From Alphaproteobacteria bacterium (lineage in GTDB: Bacteria > Pseudomonadota > Alphaproteobacteria > Micropepsales > Micropepsaceae), in the NCBI GenBank assembly GCA_015654715.1, contig JAATGK010000108.1, positions 1 to 13,200 of the forward strand: DNA of 13,200 nucleotides, read 5' to 3'. The position numbers and the translations under genes were made by a program. How positions within the stretch are numbered: the first letter of the stretch is position 1; each line of letters starts with the position of its first letter. A model generated the notes under the pieces. That model saw nothing but the letters and a program-made list of their open reading frames with translations, made no database searches and was not told the DNA's origin. Below, in pieces: positions 2,866 to 13,131 of this stretch.

Positions 2866-2916
2866 GAAAGAAAAAAGCCGCCGCCCCCACGGGGGTCGTG
2901 TGAGGGGCGACGGCTT
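2866..2916 (-). terminator. Rho-independent terminator read on the minus strand
   Basis: Thirteen-base arms (2875-2887 and 2904-2916, one mismatch) are followed on the minus strand by TTTTTTC and more T residues. No minus-strand protein gene is recognised immediately to its right, so the transcript it ends is unexplained. Confidence 0.75.
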
Positions 2917-3033
2917 GCTTGGCCCGTTCGAGAAGCGCGCGTTCCAGGACACCGGTTCTGCGCTTCGACTATCCGATAATTGGCAAAGGCCAGTGTCGTC
3001 ACCGTAAGCCAAGGCAGCTTTGCTGGGCAGGAT

Positions 3034-3048
3034 CGGAATCTACTCATT
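3034..3048 (-). promoter_or_regulatory. Recurring intergenic motif, copy A
   Basis: On the minus strand the site reads AATGAGTAGATTCCG, followed by ATCCTGCC. It matches the TGAGTA-N2-TTCC core exactly. It faces left, toward the minus-strand terminator at 2866-2916, with no protein gene between. It is the only copy not facing a recognised gene. Confidence 0.6.
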
Positions 3049-3193
3049 TGCGTTCCGGCCGCCCGGTTGTCGTCGCCACAAGCACGCTCCAAGGCTATCT
3101 GGCTCGCATGAATACGCGACGCATATCAAATTCGTTCGGCCGAGCCATGACCCGCCGAACCGCCGCCGCGTCAAGCGCGGGAGCGGCACGTAA

Positions 3194-3208
3194 CCTGAGT
3201 ACATTCCG
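3194..3208 (+). promoter_or_regulatory. Recurring intergenic motif, copy B
   Basis: CCTGAGTACATTCCG, followed by AGTCTGCC, is identical to copy C at 14 of 15 positions. It ends 89 bases before the start of the two-helix membrane protein gene and points toward it. Confidence 0.6.
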
Positions 3209-3297
3209 AGTCTGCCGCGCTCAGCGCCGCGAGATTATGAATATCGAACGGTGTTTCAGCCCTACGCGGCGGCGTCAAATGCCCGCCTGACCAGGAG

Positions 3298-3846
3298 TTG
3301 TTCGGGATTAGTGCTTTGACTACGATACCTTCGCCCCCCCGCTTCGCCCCACAGCGCCAGCCTTATACCAGAGGGGCGCCGATCACCGATGTCACGGCTT
3401 GCATCAAGTCGTGGGGCCGGCGCGGAATCGTTTGCGGCGCCGTGTTCGGCTTCGTGCTCGGCACGATATTCGTGGCGATCCCGCTCTCGACCAATATTCT
3501 CACTTTCGGCGCCGCCGGTACGCTGTTGGTCGCCGCGGTCGAGTGCGCCGTCATCGCCGGCGGATTCGCAGCTTTGGCGGCAGCCCTTTTTGGCGAGGGC
3601 AGCGGCAGTCACGCGCGAACTGAGCCGGCCTCGATCGCCAGGCGCCGCGTCACCGAGGCGAGCTGGCGAAATGGCGACGTGTCTGTCGCCGAGTGGCCGC
3701 AACGCTGGCCGTCCGCCGTTCAAACACCGCCGGTTGCCCTGCCGCCGGACAGCGACGGCGATTGGAGCACGGCATCTTCCCTGCAGAATATTCAAAACCG
3801 GTTGGACACGATCGATGCCTGGGAAAATGGCAGCACTGGGCCGTAA
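3298..3846 (+). CDS. Two-helix membrane protein of unknown function
   Basis: I do not recognise a precise family. The 182-residue product has a polar N-terminus, two adjacent hydrophobic segments at about 43-62 and 68-97 rich in Gly and Ala, and a long polar tail with WPQRWP and SLQNIQNRLDTID near its end. The Gly/Ala-rich helix pair resembles the membrane part of DUF1269-like stress proteins, but the usual N-terminal domain is missing. The start is uncertain. No ATG or GTG exists in frame after the upstream stop at 3238; TTG 3298 is directly abutted by AGGAG (3293-3297), which is too close, and TTG 3316 is the alternative. It precedes the CsbD-like gene by 39 bases, and motif copy B lies upstream, so the pair may be one stress operon. 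Confidence 0.62.
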   Translation: MFGISALTTIPSPPRFAPQRQPYTRGAPITDVTACIKSWGRRGIVCGAVFGFVLGTIFVAIPLSTNILTFGAAGTLLVAAVECAVIAGGFAALAAALFGEGSGSHARTEPASIARRRVTEASWRNGDVSVAEWPQRWPSAVQTPPVALPPDSDGDWSTASSLQNIQNRLDTIDAWENGSTGP

Positions 3847-3885
3847 CAATCCACGGCATTCCCCATTACCATAGGAGAGACGCGC

Positions 3886-4086
3886 ATGAACTGGGATCAA
3901 GTCGAAGGCAACTGGAAGCAATACAAGGGTCAGATCATGTCTAAATGGGGCAAGCTGACCGACGACGATATCGAGTCCATCAACGGCAAGCGAACCGAAT
4001 TGCTCGGTCTCATTCAGACACGATACGGCCGCGCCAAGGAACAAGCAGATATCGAAATCGAACATTGGATCAGCCACATCAATTAA
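3886..4086 (+). CDS. CsbD-like small stress protein
   Basis: A 66-residue CsbD/YjbJ-family protein: abundant, small, helical and soluble, induced by general stress in many bacteria, with no known biochemical activity. The family pattern is clear: MNWDQVEGNWKQYKGQ at 1-16, then WGKLTDDDIESINGKR at about 21-36 and a helical end with the RYGRAKEQA segment. Length is typical. ATG 3886 has a strong ribosome site (AGGAG at 3872-3876, 9 bases before). It follows the membrane protein gene by 39 bases with no terminator between, so co-transcription is likely. The C-terminus is normal. Confidence 0.93.
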   Translation: MNWDQVEGNWKQYKGQIMSKWGKLTDDDIESINGKRTELLGLIQTRYGRAKEQADIEIEHWISHIN

Positions 4087-4102
4087 CCGCGGGGCCTTGC
4101 CC

Positions 4103-4236
4103 ATGAAGACCAGGCTAGCCACTCCCGATACAAGGCGCCTTACGTTGGTCTGGTTCCCGTTATCGTCAGCATGACGGTCGGTTCCGTCGTGTTGCTGCTC
4201 GTTTTGCGGATGATACGACGGGTTTGTACCCCCTAA
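4103..4236 (+). pseudogene. Possible frameshifted small single-helix membrane protein
   Basis: Two tiny frames are joined by an ATGA overlap: ATG 4103 to TGA 4172-4174 (23 residues) and ATG 4171 to TAA 4234-4236 (21 residues). The second frame, read from about 4141, gives a clear hydrophobic helix (VGLVPVIVSMTVGSVVLLLV) followed by RMIRR. One base gained or lost would fuse a basic N-terminus to this helix. It could be a broken small membrane protein, two coupled micro-ORFs, or chance. No strong ribosome site is seen. Confidence 0.2.
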
Positions 4237-4283
4237 AGAGATGGCGGGATCGCCACCGTTGCTTGCATTACGGATTTGCTCTC

Positions 4284-4646
4284 ATGGCTCCGATGATCGA
4301 CATCATTGACGACGACGACGCGGTTCGCGAGTCGACACAGGCGCTGCTCGAAACCTACGGCTACGACGCCCGCCAACACCCCTCGGCCGAGGATTTCCTC
4401 AGCCATTCGGGCGAAAAGGCCGACTGCCTGCTTGTCGATCACCACATGCCCGGCATGACCGGACTTGATCTTCTCGAGCATCTGCATGCGAAAGGCGATC
4501 ACACGCCTGCGCTGGTTATTACCGGCCGGAGCGATCCGACCATGGAGCCGCGCGCCGCACGCGTCGGCGTCAAGGTGCTGCACAAGCCGGTCGATGCCGA
4601 CGAACTCATCCGTTGGATCGAAGAAGTGCGGAACGTGAAACGCTAA
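4284..4646 (+). CDS. Stand-alone response regulator receiver domain
   Basis: This 120-residue protein is a CheY-like receiver without an output domain, closest in feel to FixJ-type receivers. Seen directly: the acidic pocket in IIDDDDAVRES (7-17), phospho-acceptor Asp52 in LLVDHHMPGMTGLDLL, Thr80 in LVITG and Lys101 in LHKPVD. It should be phosphorylated by a histidine kinase and signal by protein contact or as a phosphate sink; no kinase gene lies in the window. ATG 4284 gives the normal receiver start. An upstream in-frame TTG (4224) would add an atypical basic extension and is rejected. It sits among stress-type genes, where single-domain regulators often tune signalling, but a link to the stress response here is inference. 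Its stop lies inside a palindrome (4638-4653). Confidence 0.88.
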   Translation: MAPMIDIIDDDDAVRESTQALLETYGYDARQHPSAEDFLSHSGEKADCLLVDHHMPGMTGLDLLEHLHAKGDHTPALVITGRSDPTMEPRAARVGVKVLHKPVDADELIRWIEEVRNVKR

Positions 4647-4653
4647 AGCGTTT
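4638..4653. repeat. Palindrome over the stop codon of the receiver gene
   Basis: AAACGC (4638-4643) and GCGTTT (4648-4653) flank TAAA, which contains the stop codon. It resembles the start of short repeated intergenic elements common in alphaproteobacteria (AAAGCGTTTTC-type). Another short dyad, CGGAC/GTCCG, follows within 25 bases. Either could act as a weak terminator. Confidence 0.35.
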
Positions 4654-4714
4654 TCGGCGGACATCATTTGGTCCGATAATTTCCCAACTCGGAATCCTCC
4701 GCTGCGTTCACCAG

Positions 4715-4729
4715 CCTGAGTAGATTCCG
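4715..4729 (+). promoter_or_regulatory. Recurring intergenic motif, copy C
   Basis: CCTGAGTAGATTCCG faces the secreted protein gene at 4825 and ends 95 bases before it. Its GATTCCG half (4723-4729) is mirrored by CGGAATC at 4690-4696, making a dyad with 26 bases between arms. Twelve bases after the motif begins an EcfG-like promoter candidate. Confidence 0.6.
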
Positions 4730-4741
4730 GTCCTTTCTGGT

Positions 4742-4766
4742 TGAACCCAGTGATGGCAGTGTCGTT
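4742..4766 (+). promoter_or_regulatory. Candidate EcfG-type stress promoter
   Basis: TGAAC (4742-4746), 16 bases, then CGTT (4763-4766): one mismatch from the alphaproteobacterial general-stress consensus GGAAC-N16/17-CGTT. It lies 58 bases before ATG 4825 on the right strand. The -35 mismatch makes this tentative. Confidence 0.4.
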
Positions 4767-4824
4767 GAACCGCTGTTGTATCGCGCTCATTCCGCGCAGG
4801 TGACAGCACAATGAGGACTCCAAC

Positions 4825-5136
4825 ATGCGTATGCTTTTAAAAAGCGCAGCCATTGCGCTGGCCCTGGCAGGTGCGACGTTCGCGACCACCGGTGCGTCCA
4901 GTGCCGACGGCTTTGCGATCAGCACGTCCAACCACGGCCGTGGTCATACCACGACCGGCGTTGCGTTCGATTTCGGCAATGTCGCTTTCGGATATCAGGA
5001 CGGCTATTGGGACAATGGCCACCGCTGGCACAAATGGCGTAATCGTGGCGACCACGACAATTATCGCAACCAACACGGCGATAACTATCGCGACGGAAAC
5101 CACAGTCGCTATCACGGCCAAGGCTGGCGGCGATAA
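4825..5136 (+). CDS. Secreted His/Asn/Gly-rich small protein
   Basis: A 103-residue exported protein. Residues 1-27 form a typical Sec signal (MRML-K, a hydrophobic Ala/Leu run, then ASSA before Asp28). The mature part has a short beta-like segment with TTGVAFDFGNVAFGYQDGYW, then the aromatic/basic motif DNGHRWHKWRNR and a tail packed with His, Asn, Arg, Asp and Tyr ending in QGWRR. Periplasmic proteins with a GYWD...HRWHRW block are common in alphaproteobacteria but uncharacterised. The many His residues suggest metal binding, as inference only. ATG 4825 is well placed after GAGGA (4813-4817). Upstream lie motif copy C and an EcfG-like promoter candidate, consistent with stress control. Confidence 0.82.
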   Translation: MRMLLKSAAIALALAGATFATTGASSADGFAISTSNHGRGHTTTGVAFDFGNVAFGYQDGYWDNGHRWHKWRNRGDHDNYRNQHGDNYRDGNHSRYHGQGWRR

Positions 5137-5208
5137 GTCCGTTAATATCGAAGTCCTTGACCGCAGACGTGCGCGTTGAGGACTTCGACCTTTCGTGGAA
5201 GACAAGTT

Positions 5209-5406
5209 ATGGGCTACACGATTCGATTTCAGCGCCCGGGAACGTTGGGCTGCATCTCCAATCTTTTCGTCGAGAACGATGCGACGACAGCAATGCAAAT
5301 CCGGCACCTGGAAGCAATCGGCTACATCATCGTTGATGCACCGCCGCCACCGGAAGCAGAGACGCGATTTCCGCTGGTCCAGCCGGCCTTTTCACGCACT
5401 TTTTGA
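5209..5406 (+). CDS. Small hypothetical protein
   Basis: A 65-residue protein I cannot assign. It begins MGYTIRFQRPGTLG, continues with a plausible alpha/beta stretch (MQIRHLEAIGYIIVDAPPPP) and ends in RTF. ATG 5209 has GGAAG 7 bases upstream; upstream in-frame ATG 5176 has less support. It follows the secreted protein gene by 72 bases on the same strand and may share its transcript. Its last 15 bases overlap the 3' end of the exporter gene on the other strand (5392-5406), so the two transcripts converge. Composition looks protein-like, but no conserved motif was recognised. Confidence 0.55.
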   Translation: MGYTIRFQRPGTLGCISNLFVENDATTAMQIRHLEAIGYIIVDAPPPPEAETRFPLVQPAFSRTF

Positions 5407-6981
5407 GACGATAGCGGGCTGAGTGCATTTCGCGGCCTTCTTTTGGCGCGCGAACGGAACGCCGACCACCGCCGCCAAAGTCAGGATCGCGACCACCGCC
5501 CAGGCATCGTTCATCGCCGCAACGAAGGCGGCGCGATTGACCATGGGCTCGAGGATGCTTTGGGTCATGGCATCGATCGGACCCGGCGCCCGGTCGGCAA
5601 AGAGCCGCATCGGGATACCGACAAATTTCGCCGTCGCGACGTCGCCAGCCATCAGACGATGCGCAATCGCCGTCGCATGAACCGGCGCCCGGCCGTAGAT
5701 GATGCTGTCGACCAGTGCGATGCCGATGGCGCCGCCAAGATTGCGCATCAGATTGAAAAGACCACTGGCGTCCGGTACGGCCGCTGTCTTGAGGTGGCCA
5801 AGCGCCAAGCGCGTCGGCGGCAACAAGCAAAACATGATCGCCACGCCGCGAATGACCTGCGGCCAGAACATACCGGCAAAGTCGGTCTCGGGCGTTTCGA
5901 AGGCGCTAAGACCGAGGCCGGTCGCAAACAGTAGAAAGCCCAATGTCGTCAACAAGCGCGCGCCCATGCGGCGCTCCAGGAAAACAGCGAGAGGTGCCGT
6001 CGCCAATTGGGCGATACCCGTCACCAGCATGGTTGCGCCGATTTCGAGCGCCTCATGACCGCGCGCAAAGGCCAGGAACACCGGCATCATATAGACAGAG
6101 CCGAAGAGACCGATCCCCAGCACGAAACTGAGCAGGCACCCCACCGCAAACATCGGATCCGCCAAGGTGCGAAGTTCGACGACCGGCTTGCGGCGGCCGA
6201 GCGTGCGGCGCACAAATGCGAAACCGCTCGCCAGCGCCACCGCCAGCAAGCCGCACACGGTGGGCGATAGCCAGCCGCGGTCGGGCGCTTCCTTAAGGGC
6301 AATTTCCAGAGCGGCAAGCGCCAGCGCCATGAACGCAATCGACAGGATGTCGAGCGAACGCGTCTCGCCCCATACCGGTTTCTCTACCGGCAACAGCCAC
6401 ACCGTCGCCACGGCCGACAAAATTCCCGGCGCGACGTTGATGAGGAACAGCCAGTGCCAGCTATAAGTCTCGGTGATCCAGCCGCCGACGATGGGCCCTA
6501 CGGTGGGGGCGAGCACGGCGAGGACGCCGCCAATCGTCGTGGCGATGCCCTGCAGACGCGGCGGAAACAGCACAAACACGGCCGTGAACACCGCCGGAAT
6601 CAGCGTTCCGCCCGAAAAGCCCTGCACCACCCGCCAGATCATCAGAACGGTAAAGCTGGTGCTGGCGGCACAACCGATGGAAGCCAGCGTGAAAATCGAA
6701 ATGGTGATGATGAACATCCAGCGCATGGTCAACAGACGGGTCAAAAATCCCGTCAGCGGGATCGCGATGACTTCGGCGACGAGATAAGCCGTCTGGACCC
6801 AGCTCATCTGATCGCGCGCGATGCCAAGGGCGCCTTGGATCGTCGGCAGCGAGGTGGCGACCACCTGTATATCGAGGATCGCCATGAACATGCCGACGCA
6901 CATCATGGCAAAGCCGGCCCAGGTGGCGGGCGGAACCTTCTCCTCGTCGCTAGGTATCGGACGCTCCTCTGAGGGCGGCAT
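5392..6981 (-). CDS. DHA2-family MFS drug/metabolite exporter (EmrB-like)
   Basis: A 529-residue inner-membrane transporter of the 14-helix DHA2 type, expected to export hydrophobic small molecules using the proton gradient. Early helix 1 carries the family pattern GMFMAILDIQVVATSLPTIQ. A motif-A-like loop is GFLTRLLTMRW. The antiporter motif C is clear (GPIVGGWITETYSWHWLFLI). The second half has the expected later helices and a short basic tail. ATG 6981 (MPPSEERPIP) is chosen because it gives the usual short polar N-terminus; an upstream ATG at 7017 would add 12 hydrophobic residues. The gene overlaps the methyltransferase gene by 32 bases and is third in the operon with the polyketide synthase, so its cargo is probably the methylated polyketide. 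A general multidrug role is the alternative. No terminator is obvious. Confidence 0.92.
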   Translation of the reverse strand: MPPSEERPIPSDEEKVPPATWAGFAMMCVGMFMAILDIQVVATSLPTIQGALGIARDQMSWVQTAYLVAEVIAIPLTGFLTRLLTMRWMFIITISIFTLASIGCAASTSFTVLMIWRVVQGFSGGTLIPAVFTAVFVLFPPRLQGIATTIGGVLAVLAPTVGPIVGGWITETYSWHWLFLINVAPGILSAVATVWLLPVEKPVWGETRSLDILSIAFMALALAALEIALKEAPDRGWLSPTVCGLLAVALASGFAFVRRTLGRRKPVVELRTLADPMFAVGCLLSFVLGIGLFGSVYMMPVFLAFARGHEALEIGATMLVTGIAQLATAPLAVFLERRMGARLLTTLGFLLFATGLGLSAFETPETDFAGMFWPQVIRGVAIMFCLLPPTRLALGHLKTAAVPDASGLFNLMRNLGGAIGIALVDSIIYGRAPVHATAIAHRLMAGDVATAKFVGIPMRLFADRAPGPIDAMTQSILEPMVNRAAFVAAMNDAWAVVAILTLAAVVGVPFARQKKAAKCTQPAIVSKSA

Positions 6982-7447
6982 TTTCAGCGGAAATGCGAAT
7001 ATACAGAACCATGCCATTCAGTATCGAGAACGCCAGGGCATACCACGGCAGTCCGAGGGCGAGCGGCAAGACCGCGATCTCGCCGACGACCACCGTATAA
7101 TTGGGATGTTTCAAAAAACGATAGGGACCGGTTTTGACCAAAGGCGCTCCCGGCAGGAGGATGATGCGGGTGGTCCAGCGCTCTCCCAGAGTGGTCAGCA
7201 CCCACACGCGCAGAACCTGAAGCACGGCGAAAAGCGCCAGCCATCCCCATACGATCGGGTGGTTCCAGGCAATCAGCCACAGACCCCCAAGCCATATCGC
7301 GTGCAGCGCGACGACCAGACGATAGTGTTCGGGCGCAAATTCCACGGCCCCGCGGCCGACGAGCCGCGCCGTATTGCGCCGCGCCAGAACAAGCTCCGCC
7401 ACCCGTTCGGCGGTGACGAAGCCAAGCAGGATAATCGCGCCAATCAA
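6950..7447 (-). CDS. ICMT-like membrane methyltransferase (YpbQ/BpsB-like)
   Basis: A 165-residue integral membrane methyltransferase of the isoprenylcysteine carboxyl methyltransferase superfamily. Four to five hydrophobic segments are visible. The SAM-binding signature is GPYRFLKHPNYTVVVGE (107-123), with Glu155 in the later R-I-x-x-E-N motif. In Bacillus the relative BpsB (YpbQ) O-methylates alkylpyrones made by the type III synthase BpsA. The same pairing here suggests the same chemistry, since bacteria do not normally need a CAAX methyltransferase. The start is TTG 7447, overlapping the synthase stop as TTGA, so translation is coupled; GAGAG lies 7 bases before it. Its end overlaps the exporter start by 32 bases. 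Confidence 0.88.
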   Translation of the reverse strand: MIGAIILLGFVTAERVAELVLARRNTARLVGRGAVEFAPEHYRLVVALHAIWLGGLWLIAWNHPIVWGWLALFAVLQVLRVWVLTTLGERWTTRIILLPGAPLVKTGPYRFLKHPNYTVVVGEIAVLPLALGLPWYALAFSILNGMVLYIRISAENAALRGASDT

Positions 7448-8499
7448 GCCGCTCTCTTCAGCGAGACGCAGCTCGCGCTGAACCCCGGCCCCATCGCCGT
7501 CGCCACCGCGCGCGACGGCAGGCCCGCACGCAGCGTACGGTCGAGCACAAACAACACCGTCGGGGCCGACATATTGCCGTATTCGCGCAGGATCTCGCGT
7601 TCATGGTCGAGCCCGCCCTGGGCAATGCCCAAGGCCCGCTCCAGCGCAACAACGACCTTGGTGCCGCCGGGATGGCAAATGAAGCGGTCCACCTCATTCA
7701 TCCGGATTTTCGCGCGCTGCAGAATTCCCGCCACTGCCGGTCCCATATTGGCCTCGGCAAACGACGGGATCGCCTGCGCAAAAATCACTTCGAAGCCCTC
7801 GCTGTCCAGATCCCAGCCCATGATGTCGAGCGTACCAAGCCAGGTATGTTCACCGGCCGCTTCCACTTCGGCAAGGCCGCCTTCTTTTCCGGCGCGCAAG
7901 ACGCACGCCGCCGCGCCGTCGCCGAACAGGGCACAGGCGACGATGCCCGCCTTGGTGAGCTGATCCATGCGGAACGCGAGGGTGCAAAGCTCGACCACGA
8001 CCAAGAGGACGTAGGCGCCCGGTTGCGCTCTGGCCAGACGAGCCGCTATTGCAAAGCCGGAGACGCCGCCCGCACATCCCAGCCCAAACACCGGAACCCG
8101 CTGGATGTCATCGCGGAACCCCATCGCCTGAGCGGCCCGTGCCTCCAGACTTGGCGTCGCAATGCCGGTGGAGGAGACCGTAACGACGATATCAACGTCG
8201 GCCGCGTCGAGCTGTGCCGTCGCCAGCGCCTTGTTGGCGGCATCGACAAACAGATCGTGACCCACTTCAAGATACGCCGCCGTTCGTTCCTTCCAGCCGT
8301 GCGGCTTGGAATACCATTCGATCGGCCGTGCCGAGTGCCGTTTGTGGATTCCGGCCGTCGAAAACACAGGCACCATGCGATCGAACGCGGCGTATCGATT
8401 GCCGAACATTTCGCGGGCGGCCTCCACGACATCATCTTGATACAGAATGTGCGGAGGAACCGCCGTTGCGAGCGAAATCAACTTTGCCGTTTGGTTCAA
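7444..8499 (-). CDS. Type III polyketide synthase (chalcone/alkylpyrone synthase family)
   Basis: A 351-residue type III PKS. It condenses an acyl-CoA starter with malonyl-CoA units and cyclises the chain, typically to alkylpyrones or alkylresorcinols in bacteria. All three catalytic residues are seen: Cys142 in VFGLGCAGGVSG, His276 in FICHPGGTKVV and Asn309 in YGNMSAPTV. The C-terminal cyclisation-pocket loop appears as AMGPGFS (335-341). Length is normal for the family. The TTG 8499 start has AAGG 7 bases upstream and gives the expected N-terminus (LISLATAVPP). It heads an operon with the methyltransferase and exporter, with 4- and 32-base overlaps. Starter length and product cannot be read from sequence. 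Similar genes occur in membrane-lipid and cyst-lipid pathways. Confidence 0.94.
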   Translation of the reverse strand: MNQTAKLISLATAVPPHILYQDDVVEAAREMFGNRYAAFDRMVPVFSTAGIHKRHSARPIEWYSKPHGWKERTAAYLEVGHDLFVDAANKALATAQLDAADVDIVVTVSSTGIATPSLEARAAQAMGFRDDIQRVPVFGLGCAGGVSGFAIAARLARAQPGAYVLLVVVELCTLAFRMDQLTKAGIVACALFGDGAAACVLRAGKEGGLAEVEAAGEHTWLGTLDIMGWDLDSEGFEVIFAQAIPSFAEANMGPAVAGILQRAKIRMNEVDRFICHPGGTKVVVALERALGIAQGGLDHEREILREYGNMSAPTVLFVLDRTLRAGLPSRAVATAMGPGFSASCVSLKRAA

Positions 8500-8661
8500 G
8501 TATCAGCCTTTCGTGCGGTTCAGAGAAACCGGCCGTTGTTATGGTGATGAAGACGAGCACGTCGCTGCGCCGTTCGACCTTAGCTATGACCGGCGCAATT
8601 CCCTAGGGATAATGCCGCGCCCTAGCGGCAGGTTCCGGCGTTACCGAACTGAAACGTCCGG

Positions 8662-9015
8662 CTACCGCCGACTGGCCGCACCAACGATCGCGCCGAGAAG
8701 CGCGCCGGCGCCGATCGACCACGCCAACGCAGCCAGCGGCTGGGCCCGTATCGACTTGCGCGCGGAATCCAGATTGCCGCTCGCCCAATCGTCGACATCG
8801 TGGACGGCTTGCGCGGCTGATTCCTCGGCGAGGCGGTAAGCACCATGCGCCACGTCTTCCGCCTTGCGCAGAGCGAGTTGGACACGATTGTCCGCCACAC
8901 CTTCGACGTCGCCGGCAACTTTCTTCATGTCGCCCTCCAACGTCTCAAGTTCCGAGCGCAACGCGCCCAGGCGTGAATCCAATTTGACGGAATTTTTTCT
9001 GGTACGGTCGGCCAT
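8662..9015 (-). CDS. DUF883/ElaB-YqjD-like tail-anchored protein
   Basis: A 117-residue protein with the build of the DUF883 (ElaB/YqjD) family. A charged helical or coiled-coil body (about 10-85, with LRSELETLEGDMKKVAGDVE) is followed by a basic linker (SARKSIRAQP) and a single C-terminal helix, LAALAWSIGAGALLGAIVGA, ending ASRR. In E. coli such proteins are inner-membrane tail anchors that bind ribosomes in stationary phase; that role here is inference. ATG 9015 has GGAA 8 bases upstream. It stands alone: 162 bases separate it from the polyketide synthase operon downstream, and 151 from the small acidic gene upstream. Confidence 0.85.
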   Translation of the reverse strand: MADRTRKNSVKLDSRLGALRSELETLEGDMKKVAGDVEGVADNRVQLALRKAEDVAHGAYRLAEESAAQAVHDVDDWASGNLDSARKSIRAQPLAALAWSIGAGALLGAIVGAASRR

Positions 9016-9166
9016 GAGTGGTTTCCATTCGTTTGAGGTTGATTGACGTGATCAGCATGCGGGTCACCGCCGGCTGATGATCGGCGAATAGTTTTTTGCG
9101 TGCAATGCGCCCGCGGCACGTGTTCGGGTTTCAGTATGCCTTCGAAGCGTTGATGCGCGACGCTAC

Positions 9167-9376
9167 CTAAAATCGTCCACCGACATTGCGAAGAAGCGTC
9201 GATCGCATCGGCGGGCGGCCTACGGGCCGTTGCGGTTCGTCATCGTCATCGTCATCGTCCAAGCCACGGGCTTCCAAACAGCGGCTCTGCGTCGGCACGC
9301 CGTCCCCCCCTGCCACACACAATTTGCAGTCGATGTCTTGCGTTTGAGGGCTGCTGATTTGATCGCTTTTATTCAC
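9167..9376 (-). CDS. Small acidic Cys/Asp-rich protein, unknown
   Basis: Not recognised. GTG 9376 has a perfect GGAGG (9386-9382) 5 bases upstream, which is why this start is preferred over ATG 9448. The 69-residue product has an N-terminal polar part, a CKLC pair (17 and 20) with a third Cys at 33, a run of seven Asp (40-46) followed by Glu, then a Pro/Arg-rich end (PQRPVGRPP) and LLRNVGGRF. The Asp run is encoded by alternating GAC/GAT, so it is a short repeat that could vary in length. The Cys spacing and acidic run could bind a metal, but this is a guess. Motif copy D lies 130 bases upstream and faces it. Confidence 0.6.
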   Translation of the reverse strand: MNKSDQISSPQTQDIDCKLCVAGGDGVPTQSRCLEARGLDDDDDDDEPQRPVGRPPMRSTLLRNVGGRF

Positions 9377-9505
9377 AGAGACCTCCACAAAATAACCAAG
9401 CCCTGGCCGCGGGAGACAGAAACGCCAGGCCGGACGACGGCACCACACAGGCGCCCATACCGGGTCTTACAAAACATGTCATTTACCGAGGCGAGCGAGA
9501 AGGCT

Positions 9506-9520
9506 CGGAATATACTCAGC
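9506..9520 (-). promoter_or_regulatory. Recurring intergenic motif, copy D
   Basis: On the minus strand the site is GCTGAGTATATTCCG, followed by AGCCTTCT. It lies between the FMN reductase stop and the small acidic gene, and faces the latter. It shares the AGCCT extension with copy E. Confidence 0.6.
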
Positions 9521-9543
9521 GTGTTACGCGTTGGTATGGGTCG

Positions 9544-10092
9544 TCACGCGTGCTGTTTCACCCAAGCGACATAGTGGTCCATCCAGCCTTGCAGGAACAA
9601 TTTGCTGCCGGCGCCGATATTGCCGCTATCGTCGAACAGACCCTCTCTTACTTGAACATAGGCTTCGGGTTGCCCCAGCGTGGCGACATCCAGATAAGCG
9701 AGGACGTTGCGCAGATGCTGCTGCGCCAGTGCCGTCCCGACCGGCCCGACCGACACGCCCAATATTCCGGCGGGCTTGCCAGCCCAGGCGCTTTCGCCGT
9801 AAGGGCGCGAGGCATGGTCGATCGCGTTCTTGAGGACCCCGGGTATCGACCGGTTGTACTCAGCCGTAACGAACAAAAGACCTTGGGACGCTTTGATCGC
9901 CTGCTTCAGCCTGATGACGGGGGCCGCTTGTTGGGGGTCGTCATCCTGATTGTAAAGCGGCAAATCGCTGATTTTTATGTGCTCGAACGACAATTCCGGC
10001 GGCGCGAGCTTGATCATGGCCTCGGCGAACTTGTGATTGAAGGACTCGCGGCGAAGGCTGCCGACCACTACGGCGATCTGATACGGGCTCAT
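9544..10092 (-). CDS. NAD(P)H-dependent FMN reductase (ChrR-like quinone/chromate reductase)
   Basis: A 182-residue flavodoxin-fold reductase that should bind FMN and pass two electrons from NAD(P)H to quinones, and in relatives to chromate or azo compounds. Motifs seen: the phosphate-binding loop GSLRRESFN (11-19), and the flavin-contact motif AEYNRSIPGVLKNAIDHASR (77-96). Length is normal for the family. ATG 10092 is chosen because GGAG stands 6 bases upstream; an in-frame TTG at 10104 would overlap that ribosome site. It is a single gene on the minus strand. The DUF992 terminator upstream separates it, so it needs its own promoter in the roughly 40 bases before the ATG or read-through. A protective role against redox cycling fits the neighbouring stress genes. 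Confidence 0.9.
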   Translation of the reverse strand: MSPYQIAVVVGSLRRESFNHKFAEAMIKLAPPELSFEHIKISDLPLYNQDDDPQQAAPVIRLKQAIKASQGLLFVTAEYNRSIPGVLKNAIDHASRPYGESAWAGKPAGILGVSVGPVGTALAQQHLRNVLAYLDVATLGQPEAYVQVREGLFDDSGNIGAGSKLFLQGWMDHYVAWVKQHA

Positions 10093-10130
10093 CTCGGTCT
10101 CCAACGAAAAAGCCGCAGCAAACGCAATCG

Positions 10131-10165
10131 AAAAACCTGCGCGGACGGTCGCCCGGCCGCGCAGG
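10131..10165 (-). terminator. Rho-independent terminator of the DUF992 gene
   Basis: Perfect 9-base arms (10136-10144 and 10157-10165) around a 12-base loop are followed on the minus strand by TTTTT (10135-10131). It starts 12 bases after the DUF992 stop. Confidence 0.88.
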
Positions 10166-10176
10166 TCGAAACTAAT

Positions 10177-10659
10177 TCACGGCGTATGCTTCAGAGTGAT
10201 CGAGCCGATACCGGCGGCGACATTGAGGCCCTTGTTGCCCGATACGCTCAGCGGCTGCAGCGAGAACGACTTGTCGAAGCCGCCGATCAGCACATTGGCG
10301 CCGACACCGATACCGGCGGTGGCACCCGCGCTGACGCCGACATAATCGCCTTCCAGTGCGCCGGGACGCACGTCGGACGTCGGGGCAACGACTTCCCAAA
10401 CCAGGACACCGCCTTCGGTGTAGCCGATGTCGACGCCGAACTTGTTAATCGAGCCGGAATAGTGGACGGCCTTTCTATCGTTCTGGCGGAAGACGCAACG
10501 CAGGTCTTTGGTCGACCCGAAGACGAATCCCCAACCGCTAGCAACGCCGCACGTCAACTCACCGACCTTCACGCCATGCGTGGCGGCTTCAGCCGAACCG
10601 GCAAGCGCGATGGCGCCGATCGCCGCGGCGCTCATCATCAAACGCAATGTATTCTTCAT
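10177..10659 (-). CDS. DUF992 family exported protein
   Basis: A 160-residue secreted or periplasmic protein. Residues 1-25 are a clean Sec signal (MKNTLRLMM, Ala/Gly core, then SAEA). The mature chain matches the DUF992 pattern: VGELTCGVASGWGFVFGS with Cys37, then LRCVF with Cys55 (a likely disulfide), YSGSINKFGVDIGYTEGG, an LVWEVVAPT segment, and Gly-rich beta strands to a short end. Function is unknown; the family is widespread in Rhizobiales-type alphaproteobacteria. ATG 10659 has GAGGAG 8 bases upstream, one of the best ribosome sites in the window. Upstream codons run open to 10857 but are shapeless. It has its own terminator, and 109 bases separate it from the slipin stop upstream. Confidence 0.9.
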   Translation of the reverse strand: MKNTLRLMMSAAAIGAIALAGSAEAATHGVKVGELTCGVASGWGFVFGSTKDLRCVFRQNDRKAVHYSGSINKFGVDIGYTEGGVLVWEVVAPTSDVRPGALEGDYVGVSAGATAGIGVGANVLIGGFDKSFSLQPLSVSGNKGLNVAAGIGSITLKHTP

Positions 10660-10768
10660 CGAAGAACTCCTCTTTCGTCGAATTAGCATAAGAGCCGGAA
10701 TGACCCCTATGTATTGCGATCCGCACGTCTGAAGCGCGCTCGATCGATGGTGATGGAAAGCGCAGTGC

Positions 10769-11596
10769 TTACGCCAGGCGCGGCGCGCTGCCGGCGGATG
10801 GAATACGCGTGACACCGTTGGTGGCAGCCGCCTTACCGGCGGTATCGAGGATCTCAAGGAACGGCTTGATGATGTCGATCGGCATCGGGAAGATCACCGT
10901 GGAATTCTGTTCGGCGCCGATCTCCGTCAGGGTTTGCAGATAGCGAAGCTGCATCGCGGCCGGAATGCTGCCGAGAATCTGGGCGGCGTTGACCAGCGTT
11001 TGCGACGCCTGGAATTCGGCCTCCGCATGGATGACCTTGGCACGCCGGTCGCGCTCGGCCTCGGCCTGTTGGGCGATGGCGCGCACCATGTTTTCGGTGA
11101 GTTCGACGGTCCTGATCTCAACGTTGCTGACCTTGATCCCCCAGGTTTCGGTTTGGGCGTCGAGAATAGCCTGCACGTCGGTGCTGAGTTTTTTCCGTTC
11201 GGACAGCATTTCGTCAAGCTCATGCTGGCCAAGCACGGCGCGCAGAGTCGTCTGCGCCAGCATGTTGGTGGCAGGAAGATATTGTTGAACCTGGATGATC
11301 GCGTGTTCCGGATTGACGACGTTGAAGTAAAGCACCGCGTCCACTTTCATCGAAACGTTGTCGCGTGAAATCACATCCTGGCTCGGTATTTCGATGACTT
11401 GAATGCGCAAATCCACGCGCACCATTTCCTGGATGAAGGGGATCAGGAAGACCAAGCCGGGACCTTTGACCTTCTCGAAACGCCCCAAGGTAAAAACCAC
11501 CGCGCGCTCATATTCACGCAGAATCCTTATGCTCATGGTTGCCAAGACAAACGCCACGACCACCACGACGGGGATGACAAATACACTGGATGACAT
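10769..11596 (-). CDS. Slipin (stomatin/SPFH-family membrane protein)
   Basis: A 275-residue SPFH protein of the bacterial slipin type, expected to form membrane-bound oligomeric cages that organise membrane domains. One N-terminal hydrophobic helix (about 3-21, FVIPVVVVVAFVL) is followed by the SPFH domain, with EYERAVVFTLGRFEKVKGPG and IPSQDVISRDNVSMKVDAVL. A helical arm rich in Ala, Glu and Arg follows (QQAEAERDRRAKVIHAEAEF) and the end is polar. Slipin genes often pair with an nfeD gene, but none is present on either side. ATG 11596 has GGAGG 10 bases upstream. A perfect EcfG-type promoter lies at 11641-11666 and motif copy E about 150 bases upstream, pointing to stress induction. Confidence 0.93.
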   Translation of the reverse strand: MSSSVFVIPVVVVVAFVLATMSIRILREYERAVVFTLGRFEKVKGPGLVFLIPFIQEMVRVDLRIQVIEIPSQDVISRDNVSMKVDAVLYFNVVNPEHAIIQVQQYLPATNMLAQTTLRAVLGQHELDEMLSERKKLSTDVQAILDAQTETWGIKVSNVEIRTVELTENMVRAIAQQAEAERDRRAKVIHAEAEFQASQTLVNAAQILGSIPAAMQLRYLQTLTEIGAEQNSTVIFPMPIDIIKPFLEILDTAGKAAATNGVTRIPSAGSAPRLA

Positions 11597-11640
11597 GGCG
11601 TGGCGCCCTCCAGAGCGCGAAAAGCGGGGTCACCACAACA

Positions 11641-11666
11641 AACGGGCGACACCGCTGAAATGTTCC
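11641..11666 (-). promoter_or_regulatory. EcfG-type general stress promoter of the slipin gene
   Basis: On the minus strand the site is GGAAC (11666-11662), 17 bases, then CGTT (11644-11641). This is an exact match to the alphaproteobacterial EcfG consensus, 44 bases before ATG 11596. Expected start of the transcript is near 11634. Confidence 0.7.
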
Positions 11667-11747
11667 ATTCGAAAGCGCTGGGCGTGTTCCGCGTCCGGCC
11701 GGTTAAGTTGGGGCAAAATGGCAGTCGCCAAGACGTTGGGACAGGCT

Positions 11748-11762
11748 CGGAAACTACTCAAC
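11748..11762 (-). promoter_or_regulatory. Recurring intergenic motif, copy E
   Basis: On the minus strand the site is GTTGAGTAGTTTCCG, followed by AGCCTGTC. It sits just after the stop of the small helical gene and faces the slipin gene, about 80 bases upstream of the EcfG-type promoter. Confidence 0.55.
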
Positions 11763-12303: not shown

Positions 12304-13131
12304 TCAGTGAGACATGAGAGAGCAACACGCCGTGCTGCGCAACAGATCCCGCGTGACGCCGCCAAAGACGAATTCACGAAAGCGGCTGTGGCCATAAGCC
12401 CCCGCGACGATGACACCGGCGCCTTGCTTGTGAGCGATAGCGTTCAACTGACTGGCGTCGTCGCCGGTCGCGTGCCGCACCGTTGCTTCGGCGGCAACAC
12501 CATGCCGCTTCAGCCAGTTGGCGACATCCTTGACCTCGCGGTGGGCGTCGGCCTGATCCTCTTCGGCGGCAATTTCGACGACCGTGACGTGCTCGGCCAT
12601 TTTCAACAACGGCAAGGCATCGAGGGCCGCACGGCGCGCTTCCAGTGTGTCTTTCCAGCCGACAACGATATGCGAAAAGTCCGGTTTGTCGGTCGTGCCC
12701 GGAACGATGAGGACAGGGCGGCCAACCTGCATCAGGAGCTCGCCGGTGTTGATGAGCCGCGATGCATCAAGCATATCGCCGGAATTGACGCTGGTGATGA
12801 CAAGGTCAGCGCATCGCGCCTCGTGCGCGATGTACTCGGAGAGCGACGCCGACATCACCGTCGAGCGCCATTCAAGTGTGCCGGTGTTGCCCTTCAGGGC
12901 GCTGCGAAACTCGGCCTCGGCTTCCTTGATCTCCTGATGGGATTCGTCGCGCACCTGCACAACGACATCGCCGGGAACATAGCCGTCATTATAGCTGGTC
13001 ACCATCGACTGGCACCCGGCTATGCCGATCACATCGGCGTGGAAACGCTCCGCCAAATCACCGGCGACACGTAACAGACCGGCGTTCGAACGCCCAAGCT
13101 CCAAATGCACCATCAAAGTCGTGTACGTCAT
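12304..13131 (-). CDS. Tandem universal stress protein (UspA family)
   Basis: A 275-residue protein with two UspA domains in a row. Domain 1 spans about 1-150, starting MTYTTLMVHLELGRSN and closing with VGRPVLIVPG. Domain 2 spans about 155-275, starting HIVVGWKDTLEARRA. The second domain keeps the ATP-binding-type motif G-x2-G-x9-G (GAYGHSRFREFVFGG, 244-258) and ends in LMSH. The first lacks this motif, so only domain 2 probably binds nucleotide. The residues just before the end (STACC) differ from the usual Val-Pro-Val run, a minor oddity. Such proteins bind ATP and support survival under stress, in the cytoplasm. ATG 13131 has AAGGA 8 bases upstream; an upstream ATG at 13170 would run through a hairpin and is rejected. 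Confidence 0.92.
   Translation of the reverse strand: MTYTTLMVHLELGRSNAGLLRVAGDLAERFHADVIGIAGCQSMVTSYNDGYVPGDVVVQVRDESHQEIKEAEAEFRSALKGNTGTLEWRSTVMSASLSEYIAHEARCADLVITSVNSGDMLDASRLINTGELLMQVGRPVLIVPGTTDKPDFSHIVVGWKDTLEARRAALDALPLLKMAEHVTVVEIAAEEDQADAHREVKDVANWLKRHGVAAEATVRHATGDDASQLNAIAHKQGAGVIVAGAYGHSRFREFVFGGVTRDLLRSTACCSLMSH

Follow-up and report, generated by a model that had tools for sequence, protein, structure and literature searches.

A repeated intergenic site in an alphaproteobacterial genome as the probable operator of a CheB-CheR-kinase-FixJ fusion regulator

We analysed a stretch of 13,200 nucleotides (nt; hereafter, the window) from contig JAATGK010000108.1 of a Micropepsaceae bacterium in the Alphaproteobacteria (GenBank assembly GCA_015654715.1; 3.13 Mb in 518 contigs, 74% complete, here called G000), in which the motif TGAGTANNTTCC occurs five times between genes. 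The motif proves to be genuine and regulatory, and it is widespread. Sequence comparison suggests, with a probability that we put at about 0.84, that it serves as the operator for the regulon of a very large one-piece two-component regulator, which joins CheB, CheR, PAS, kinase and two receiver (REC) domains to a LuxR/FixJ-type helix-turn-helix (HTH). This CheB-CheR-kinase-FixJ fusion, together with its kin having the same recognition helix, is the most likely reader of the site, because the sites cluster near close relatives of its HTH and co-occur with them in samples of the genus and of the class.

The site and its promoter context

The initial annotation had reported five copies and judged such a number far above chance. 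All five are exact, and the claim on chance is borne out: the mean count in dinucleotide shuffles of the window is 0.01, the largest is 1, and none of 200 shuffles reaches five. The whole genome holds 23 copies on at least 14 of its many contigs and no match to the reversed pattern, and the motif is also found in relatives. The full site, TGAGTAGWTTCCGANNCTGCC, is longer than first noted. The copies of the window are as follows.

3025..3046 (12-base core 3035-3046), minus strand: copy 1, TGAGTAGATTCCGATCCTGCCC, facing a candidate small RNA
3196..3217 (core 3196-3207), plus strand: copy 2, TGAGTACATTCCGAGTCTGCCG
4717..4738 (core 4717-4728), plus strand: copy 3, TGAGTAGATTCCGGTCCTTTCT
9497..9518 (core 9507-9518), minus strand: copy 4, TGAGTATATTCCGAGCCTTCTC
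11739..11760 (core 11749-11760), minus strand: copy 5, TGAGTAGTTTCCGAGCCTGTCC

When one mismatch is allowed, two further matches appear in the window, neither with the extended consensus: the match at 9015 (+) lies directly against the start codon of gene 8662-9015 on the other strand, and the match at 11185 (+) falls within the slipin gene described below. Our comparison set comprised 61 genomes, namely G000, 36 mates of its genus and 24 genomes of other genera. The 18-mer TGAGTANNTTCCGANNCT is found 18 times in G000 and in eight of the 36 genus mates (11 copies in G007, 14 in G010, 10 in G025, 13 in G031, 3 in G034, 2 in G016 and 1 each in G004 and G011). None of the 24 genomes of other genera has it, and the reversed control gave no match in any of the 61. 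Three window sites could be aligned with G007 and are better kept than their surroundings: 17 of 18 core bases versus 81 of 120 flanking bases at copy 3, 18 of 18 versus 46 of 63 aligned flanking bases at copy 4, and 18 of 18 versus 47 of 63 at copy 5. The other two sites were unaligned.

The positions of the sites were surveyed for 122 copies, comprising 23 from G000, 37 from ten loci of eight genus genomes and 62 from loci of other orders (L124, L125, L158 and L166 were left out of the classwide count, being the genomes G007, G025, G034 and G016). The own and genus sets share orthologous sites, so that not all 122 are independent; six with alike flanks were removed as redundant, which left 116 for consensus and spacing. 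Open reading frames (ORFs) came from a simple codon-score caller, and a site was counted as inside an ORF when it lay more than 15 nt in from the edge of one scoring above 10. No site of the 122 lies inside in this sense, though 78-80% of the DNA is coding. Sixteen touch some called ORF, eight at the edge of an ORF scoring above 10 and eight only low-scoring calls, and the five window copies are all clear of the genes that the caller accepted, in agreement with the earlier statement that none is inside a gene. The fixed orientation towards gene starts proved general as well, since 98 of the 122 sites face a co-oriented next gene no more than 400 nt away, at a median distance of about 141-161 nt. 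In the window, four copies do face small or stress-type genes, as had been proposed, although the distances given then (89-151 nt) differ somewhat from ours: 90-234 nt for 3196 (+), whose gene has an uncertain start codon, 96 nt for 4717 (+), 58 nt from 9507 (-) to the GTG of ORF 9167-9448, and 152 nt for 11749 (-). The remaining copy, 3035 (-), is followed by no called protein gene and precedes the probable small RNA.

The 116 non-redundant sites give the consensus TGAGTA-G(72%)-W-TTCC-G(99%)-A(90%)-N-S-C(93%)-T(94%)-G-C-C. Information drops to background beyond positions -1 to 21, and only one further element rises downstream, a TAnnnT box whose first base lies 40-41 nt downstream of T1 of the site. 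A TATAAT-like hexamer (at least four of six bases, with A2 and T6) is found at offset 39-41 in 43 of the 116 sites; the best sum over three offsets is 44, as against 14 or less for the best sum anywhere in 1000 shuffles. If the box is taken as a -10 element, the centre of the 14-bp dyad TGAGTAG-WTTCCGA falls near -45, and the -35 place is taken by CTGCCG, with a spacer of 18-19 nt. The operator is thus at a fixed distance from the -10 box and overlaps the -35 place, as in class II activation, and from established promoter knowledge we infer an activator at a sigma70 promoter.

Association of the site with the fusion regulator

A scan of named genomes with an alignment of the C-terminal part (A2) gave 80 loci, which we split into 40 with a close HTH (58% identity or more) and 40 distant FixJ-like controls (52% or less). 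The close loci contain 75 sites in 669 kb, distributed over 31 of the 40, whereas the control loci contain a single site in 620 kb, in Magnetospirillum fulvum; the reversed pattern is absent from both. The column-shuffle mean of 0.76 for the close loci overstates chance, since one of the 300 shuffles was the motif itself (75 matches). Close loci are found in Rhizomicrobium, Rhodoblastus, Rhodopila, Xanthobacter, Roseiarcus, Methylocapsa, Nitrospirillum, Skermanella, Acidisoma and Paraburkholderia, among others. Among the 37 genomes of the genus, all eight with the fusion (only its start in G000) have the 18-mer, as against one of the 29 others (Fisher's exact test, 2.3e-7, or 2.0e-6 when the truncated G005 is counted as a miss). 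The fusion is complete to the HTH in seven of them (G007, G010, G011, G016, G025, G031 and G034), and the only genome with a site and no fusion, G004, has one site beside a small ORF with a LuxR HTH. In a class sample of 289 genomes (two samples taken as one), a close REC-HTH (E up to 1e-52) goes with the 18-mer in eight of 12 genomes, versus one of 276 without such a regulator (Fisher, 4.1e-12); G000 was left out of this table, its HTH being unassembled.

The sites are also close to the regulator gene itself. Among 23 complete fusions for which upstream DNA is available, 17 have a site, by the degenerate pattern, within 900 nt upstream; from the density of that pattern in 37 control loci, 0.006 per 900 nt would be expected. 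In 16 of these 17, only divergent sites are present, pointing away from the fusion, many of them about 200 nt off. Whole-genome counts in 16 carriers came to 119 sites versus 34 reversed matches (Acidisoma 10 versus 0, Rhodopila 19 versus 1, Roseiarcus 15 versus 2).

The fusion is about 1450 residues long; the frames within the site clusters measure about 1470-1510 residues, and their last 200 residues match FixJ. All three fusions scanned have the Pfam architecture CheB-CheR-PAS-HisKA/HATPase-receiver-receiver-LuxR HTH. Six fusions align with the first at 62-74% identity, and the phosphate-acceptor positions H871, D1162 and D1299 are invariant in the six. The CheB and CheR enzyme domains are present (PF01339, PF01739), with S28, H55 and D147, which we take to be the CheB catalytic triad, likewise invariant. 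In G000, the first 183 residues of the fusion, 90% identical to G007, stand at the end of contig C473; by comparison with G007, the rest of the gene is expected in the gap between this contig and C24. G010 also has second, broken or split fusion copies on C43 and C44 (residues 459-1448; 18-239 and 233-441), one of which adjoins a site. Our first candidates for the reader, the stand-alone FixJ-like regulators that adjoin sites in G034 and G011, proved to be likely targets.

Several observations weigh against the fusion as the reader of the site. Four of the 12 regulator genomes of the class sample lack the 18-mer, and the open frames found there span 377-1580 residues, at least five of the 12 being too short for the whole fusion. 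Some carriers are at or below the reversed control (0 versus 5 in G066, 3 versus 3 in G072, 2 versus 3 in G074). Nine close loci have no strict site: two of them (L141, L146) have TAGGTA/TGCGTA variants and L139 has a one-off copy, but in the short loci L132 and L135 we accept no site at all, L150, L160 and L162 have the HTH and no accepted site, and in Skermanella (L142) the HTH is present with no site, the genome giving 0 matches versus 5 reversed. L150 has an altered helix (TVETHR) yet no recognisable altered site. G005 encodes the fusion to residue 1375, where the contig ends before the HTH, and has no site; in G000 itself, the HTH of the fusion is unassembled. Finally, the carrier genomes are related by descent and are not independent.

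The recognition helix could be read in 25 of the 40 close loci. It is TVENHR in 23 of these, whereas L132 has TIENHR and L150 has TVETHR. G003, with a shorter kinase-REC-REC-HTH hybrid, has TVETHRA instead of TVENHRA. This genome has no TGAGTA 18-mer and eight variant sites (three TCAGTA, three TCCGTA and two TACGTA), all within the 22 kb of C63:17913-39695, on the contig of its regulator. This one case is suggestive of an altered helix going with an altered site. A reversed fusion is encoded on C64 of G000 (L076 419-2071, minus strand), with an N-terminal receiver and LuxR HTH followed by an apparent PAS domain and HWE-type kinase, as judged by eye. With its helix NQRTVENHRA, it is possibly another reader of the site.

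Four other explanations were weighed. The initial annotation had considered a sigma factor, and the fixed orientation of the motif upstream of genes, as well as an extracytoplasmic function (ECF) sigma gene in G016 that has a site upstream, would suit a new sigma factor recognising the motif as its promoter. However, the conserved block is 18-21 nt long and is followed by the separate sigma70-type -10 box, 39-41 nt after the block start, which argues against a sigma-factor promoter; the site also co-occurs with an HTH protein. We therefore rejected this reading as very improbable. A dispersed repeat or mobile element, suggested by several copies per contig and by some inverted pairs (3035/3196 in the window; L004), has less in its favour still and is close to negligible, since the flanks are at background outside the site and the -10 box and only the six copies mentioned above are alike in them; the earlier worry that the motif belongs to a longer repetitive element was not borne out.

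The other two explanations stay within the FixJ family. Published FixJ sites, as they appear in excerpts of PMC4999443, include TAAGTAATTTCCCTTA of the fixK promoter and the two classes GTAGTTTCCC and GTAMGTAG from systematic evolution of ligands by exponential enrichment, and these place our motif in the FixJ class. The earlier statement that no alphaproteobacterial regulator with this site is known finds no support, since the core GTAGTTTCC is that of the published class. An orthodox FixJ could therefore be proposed as the reader, with an oxygen-regulated regulon. G000 encodes three FixJ-like proteins with an HTH; the one on C464 barely passes the NCBIfam FixJ model (255.3 versus a cut-off of 255) and adjoins a PAS kinase, as in a FixL-FixJ pair, and TAAGTAATTTCCCTTA and GTAGTTTCCC have the same core as our site. 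However, this FixJ is kept at 94% identity in G032, 71% in G020 and 67% in G026, all without the 18-mer; G032 has only one TCGGTA variant. In other orders, moreover, the sites cluster around the fusion. We rejected this candidate as unlikely, mainly on G032. It is less improbable, though still doubtful, that the site is shared by several FixJ-family regulators whose helix is SQRTVENHR, be they fusions, shorter hybrids or orphan HTHs, and that the CheB-CheR fusion is merely the commonest of them. M. fulvum has a 778-aa kinase-REC-REC-HTH protein with the same helix and TGCGTATATTCC sites upstream, including a TGCGTA site 265 nt upstream, and the small HTH ORF of G004 and the shorter hybrid of G003 point the same way, but the full fusion is present in seven of the eight other motif genomes of the genus. 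Such sharing is compatible with the fusion as the main reader, as an extension of it.

From the sites, their positions, spacing and co-occurrence, all read directly in the DNA, we infer the steps of signalling, binding and activation as follows. A signal on the PAS and/or the CheB-CheR part would set the kinase activity, and phosphate would pass to the last receiver. The HTH, probably as a dimer, would then bind the imperfect dyad about 45 nt before the transcription start; the C-terminus of the fusion is predicted to bind TGAGTAGTTTCCGAGCCT. The bound regulator would recruit RNA polymerase with an ordinary sigma factor to promoters with a -10 but a poor -35 element, and would thereby switch on genes for CsbD, Dps, BON, Usp, hemerythrin, OmpA-type proteins, slipin and single receivers, along with the probable small RNA in G000.

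Genes of the window and wider targets

The genes of the window island and the candidate small RNA are as follows.

2871..2994, minus strand: candidate small RNA, 124 nt, with a long G+C hairpin and T6 at its end (5' end placed from the -10 box)
3001..3006, minus strand: -10-like box TACGGT, placed by the spacing rule at 40 nt from T1 of copy 1
3298..3846, plus strand: two-helix membrane protein, target of copy 2 (start uncertain: 3298, 3389 or 3442)
3886..4086, plus strand: CsbD-like stress protein (PF05532, E 8.8e-16)
4224..4646, plus strand: receiver-only protein, a FixJ-like receiver without output domain (start at 4293 by our caller)
4825..5136, plus strand: secreted His-rich protein, 103 aa, target of copy 3
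8662..9015, minus strand: 117-aa protein, possible further target (no Pfam match)
9167..9448, minus strand: acidic Cys/Asp-rich protein, probable target of copy 4 (GTG start uncertain)
10769..11596, minus strand: slipin (Band 7 / SPFH), target of copy 5 (PF01145, E 5e-40)
12304..13131, minus strand: universal stress protein belonging to the same island (the window has no strict site for it)

The sequence suggests that copy 1 probably drives the 124-nt RNA. This stretch is 86% identical in G007 and, save for a 21-nt match in G002, is found in none of the other genomes among the 61. Between G000 and G007, 97.3% of the pair cells are kept and two pairs are changed on both sides, versus 37-51% kept in slid controls; pair shuffles (125 of 500) carry no information with two sequences only. 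Single-sequence folding lends modest support (z = -2.59 for the whole, -0.36 without the terminator). A mechanical terminator scan with a loop limit of 8 did not list the hairpin, and the RNA matches no Rfam family. The site upstream of it is weaker in G007 (TGGGTAGAATCC).

The two-helix membrane protein is 71% identical in G007 and groups with the YflT-domain protein of L143; the CsbD-like gene is probably on the same transcript. The acidic Cys/Asp-rich protein has no Pfam or NCBIfam match and is conserved in G007 (63% over residues 15-92, E 1.8e-23). The receiver-only protein resembles another one (L074 1035-1388, minus strand) beside the FixLJ-like pair on C464, and it is possibly a phosphate sink or a cross-talk element between the island and C464 systems. 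On the minus strand at 5392-8499, genes for an MFS transporter, an ICMT-type methyltransferase and a type III polyketide synthase stand in a row, conserved in G007 and with no strict site ahead. A full-length dnaA gene (1171-2619; PF00308, PF08299, PF11638) directly precedes the island. In G007, the island is located between the end of dnaA and dnaN (PF02767), which are about 16 kb apart (L054 3-314 and 16919-18040), indicating that these stress genes are near the presumed replication origin.

The first genes behind 107 sites group into families with the Pfam names ferritin/Dps, CsbD, BON, YflT, Ysc84/SYLF, OmpA, LTXXQ, zinc alcohol dehydrogenase, hemerythrin, Usp, PRC, DUF308, DUF3309, phosphoketolase, single receivers and ECF sigma; OsmC is found farther downstream of one site in L069. 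By family name, the targets appear to be general stress-protection genes. The stress island of the initial annotation is an apt description of the window, but the regulon extends over the contigs noted above and the site surrounds the same regulator in other orders. The ECF sigma gene of G016 (L066 15398-16108, plus strand; PF04542, also PhyR_sigma2 PF22029) has its site 63 nt upstream, and a cascade to an EcfG-type response is possible.

A wider reading, which we hold tentatively and at somewhat less than even odds, is that many Alphaproteobacteria and some Paraburkholderia may have a second general stress response apart from EcfG. It would be run by a single CheB-CheR-kinase-FixJ polypeptide, with chemotaxis-type methylation enzymes feeding gene control directly, an operator code co-evolving with one helix residue (Asn/Thr in TVE[N/T]HR) and, in some Rhizomicrobium, a small RNA as a further arm. 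For a widespread class of giant proteins whose only annotation is 'chemotaxis protein CheB' or 'CheB/CheR fusion protein', the present analysis provides a site, a regulator and a regulon that can be tested. If the assignment is true, such proteins would be regulators of stress-protection genes and not parts of chemotaxis, their annotation would have to be re-read, and a route parallel to EcfG would be added. The helix and site change in G003 offers a way into the DNA code of the FixJ family.

Comparison with known systems

We found no description of such a fusion or regulon within open-licence PMC papers, and a text search with four 12-mer variants returned no paper on the subject as far as titles and the starts of abstracts tell. 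The earlier proposal of an undescribed regulator therefore stands in part: one regulator, a fixed-orientation site and stress-type genes fit it, but the site class itself is published for FixJ. The papers on known systems are cited here from excerpts. FixJ of Sinorhizobium and Bradyrhizobium shares with the fusion a REC domain and a LuxR/GerE HTH, as well as the core of its site (PMC4999443). The closest solved chain is FixJ 5xso (E 3.6e-36), and the site falls in the class GTAGTTTCCC / TAAGTAATTTCCC. A PF00072 receiver followed by a PF00196 HTH places all three scanned fusions in the NarL/FixJ family, and also the 6xx-residue hybrid of G003 and the M. fulvum hybrid. However, the fusion scores 230.1 against the NCBIfam FixJ cut-off of 255, its HTH is located behind CheB-CheR-PAS-kinase and is joined to its own kinase instead of forming a separate protein paired with FixL, and its site is longer, with GANNCTGCC. 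The targets differ as well, FixJ controlling fixK, nifA, fixX and SMc03253 in Rhizobiales (PMC4999443) versus stress genes here.

The PhyR-NepR-EcfG system has overlapping kinds of targets, such as csbD and osmC (PMC7083833), but EcfG promoters read GGAAC-N16-CGTT, unlike our motif. The window has one GGAAC-N16/17-SGTT match (11666, minus strand; mean of 0.34 in shuffles), which lies about 70 nt ahead of the start of slipin and overlaps none of the five sites. The kinase-receiver part of the fusion is nearest to the NahK/ErcS hybrid kinases (NF041832, 371.4 bits), yet it is below the cut-off of 400 for that family, and NahK itself gives 264.8 versus 1500. The Che3 system consists of separate Che proteins controlling cysts and is not such a fusion (PMC3868531). 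CheB/CheR fusion kinases share their name with the fusion, 'CheB/CheR fusion protein' being given automatically to many close relatives, and PF01339 was counted by eye in 108 of 120 among the relatives listed. The protein described here differs from them in its C-terminal end, which consists of two receivers and a DNA-binding HTH, and in its link to a site and a regulon.

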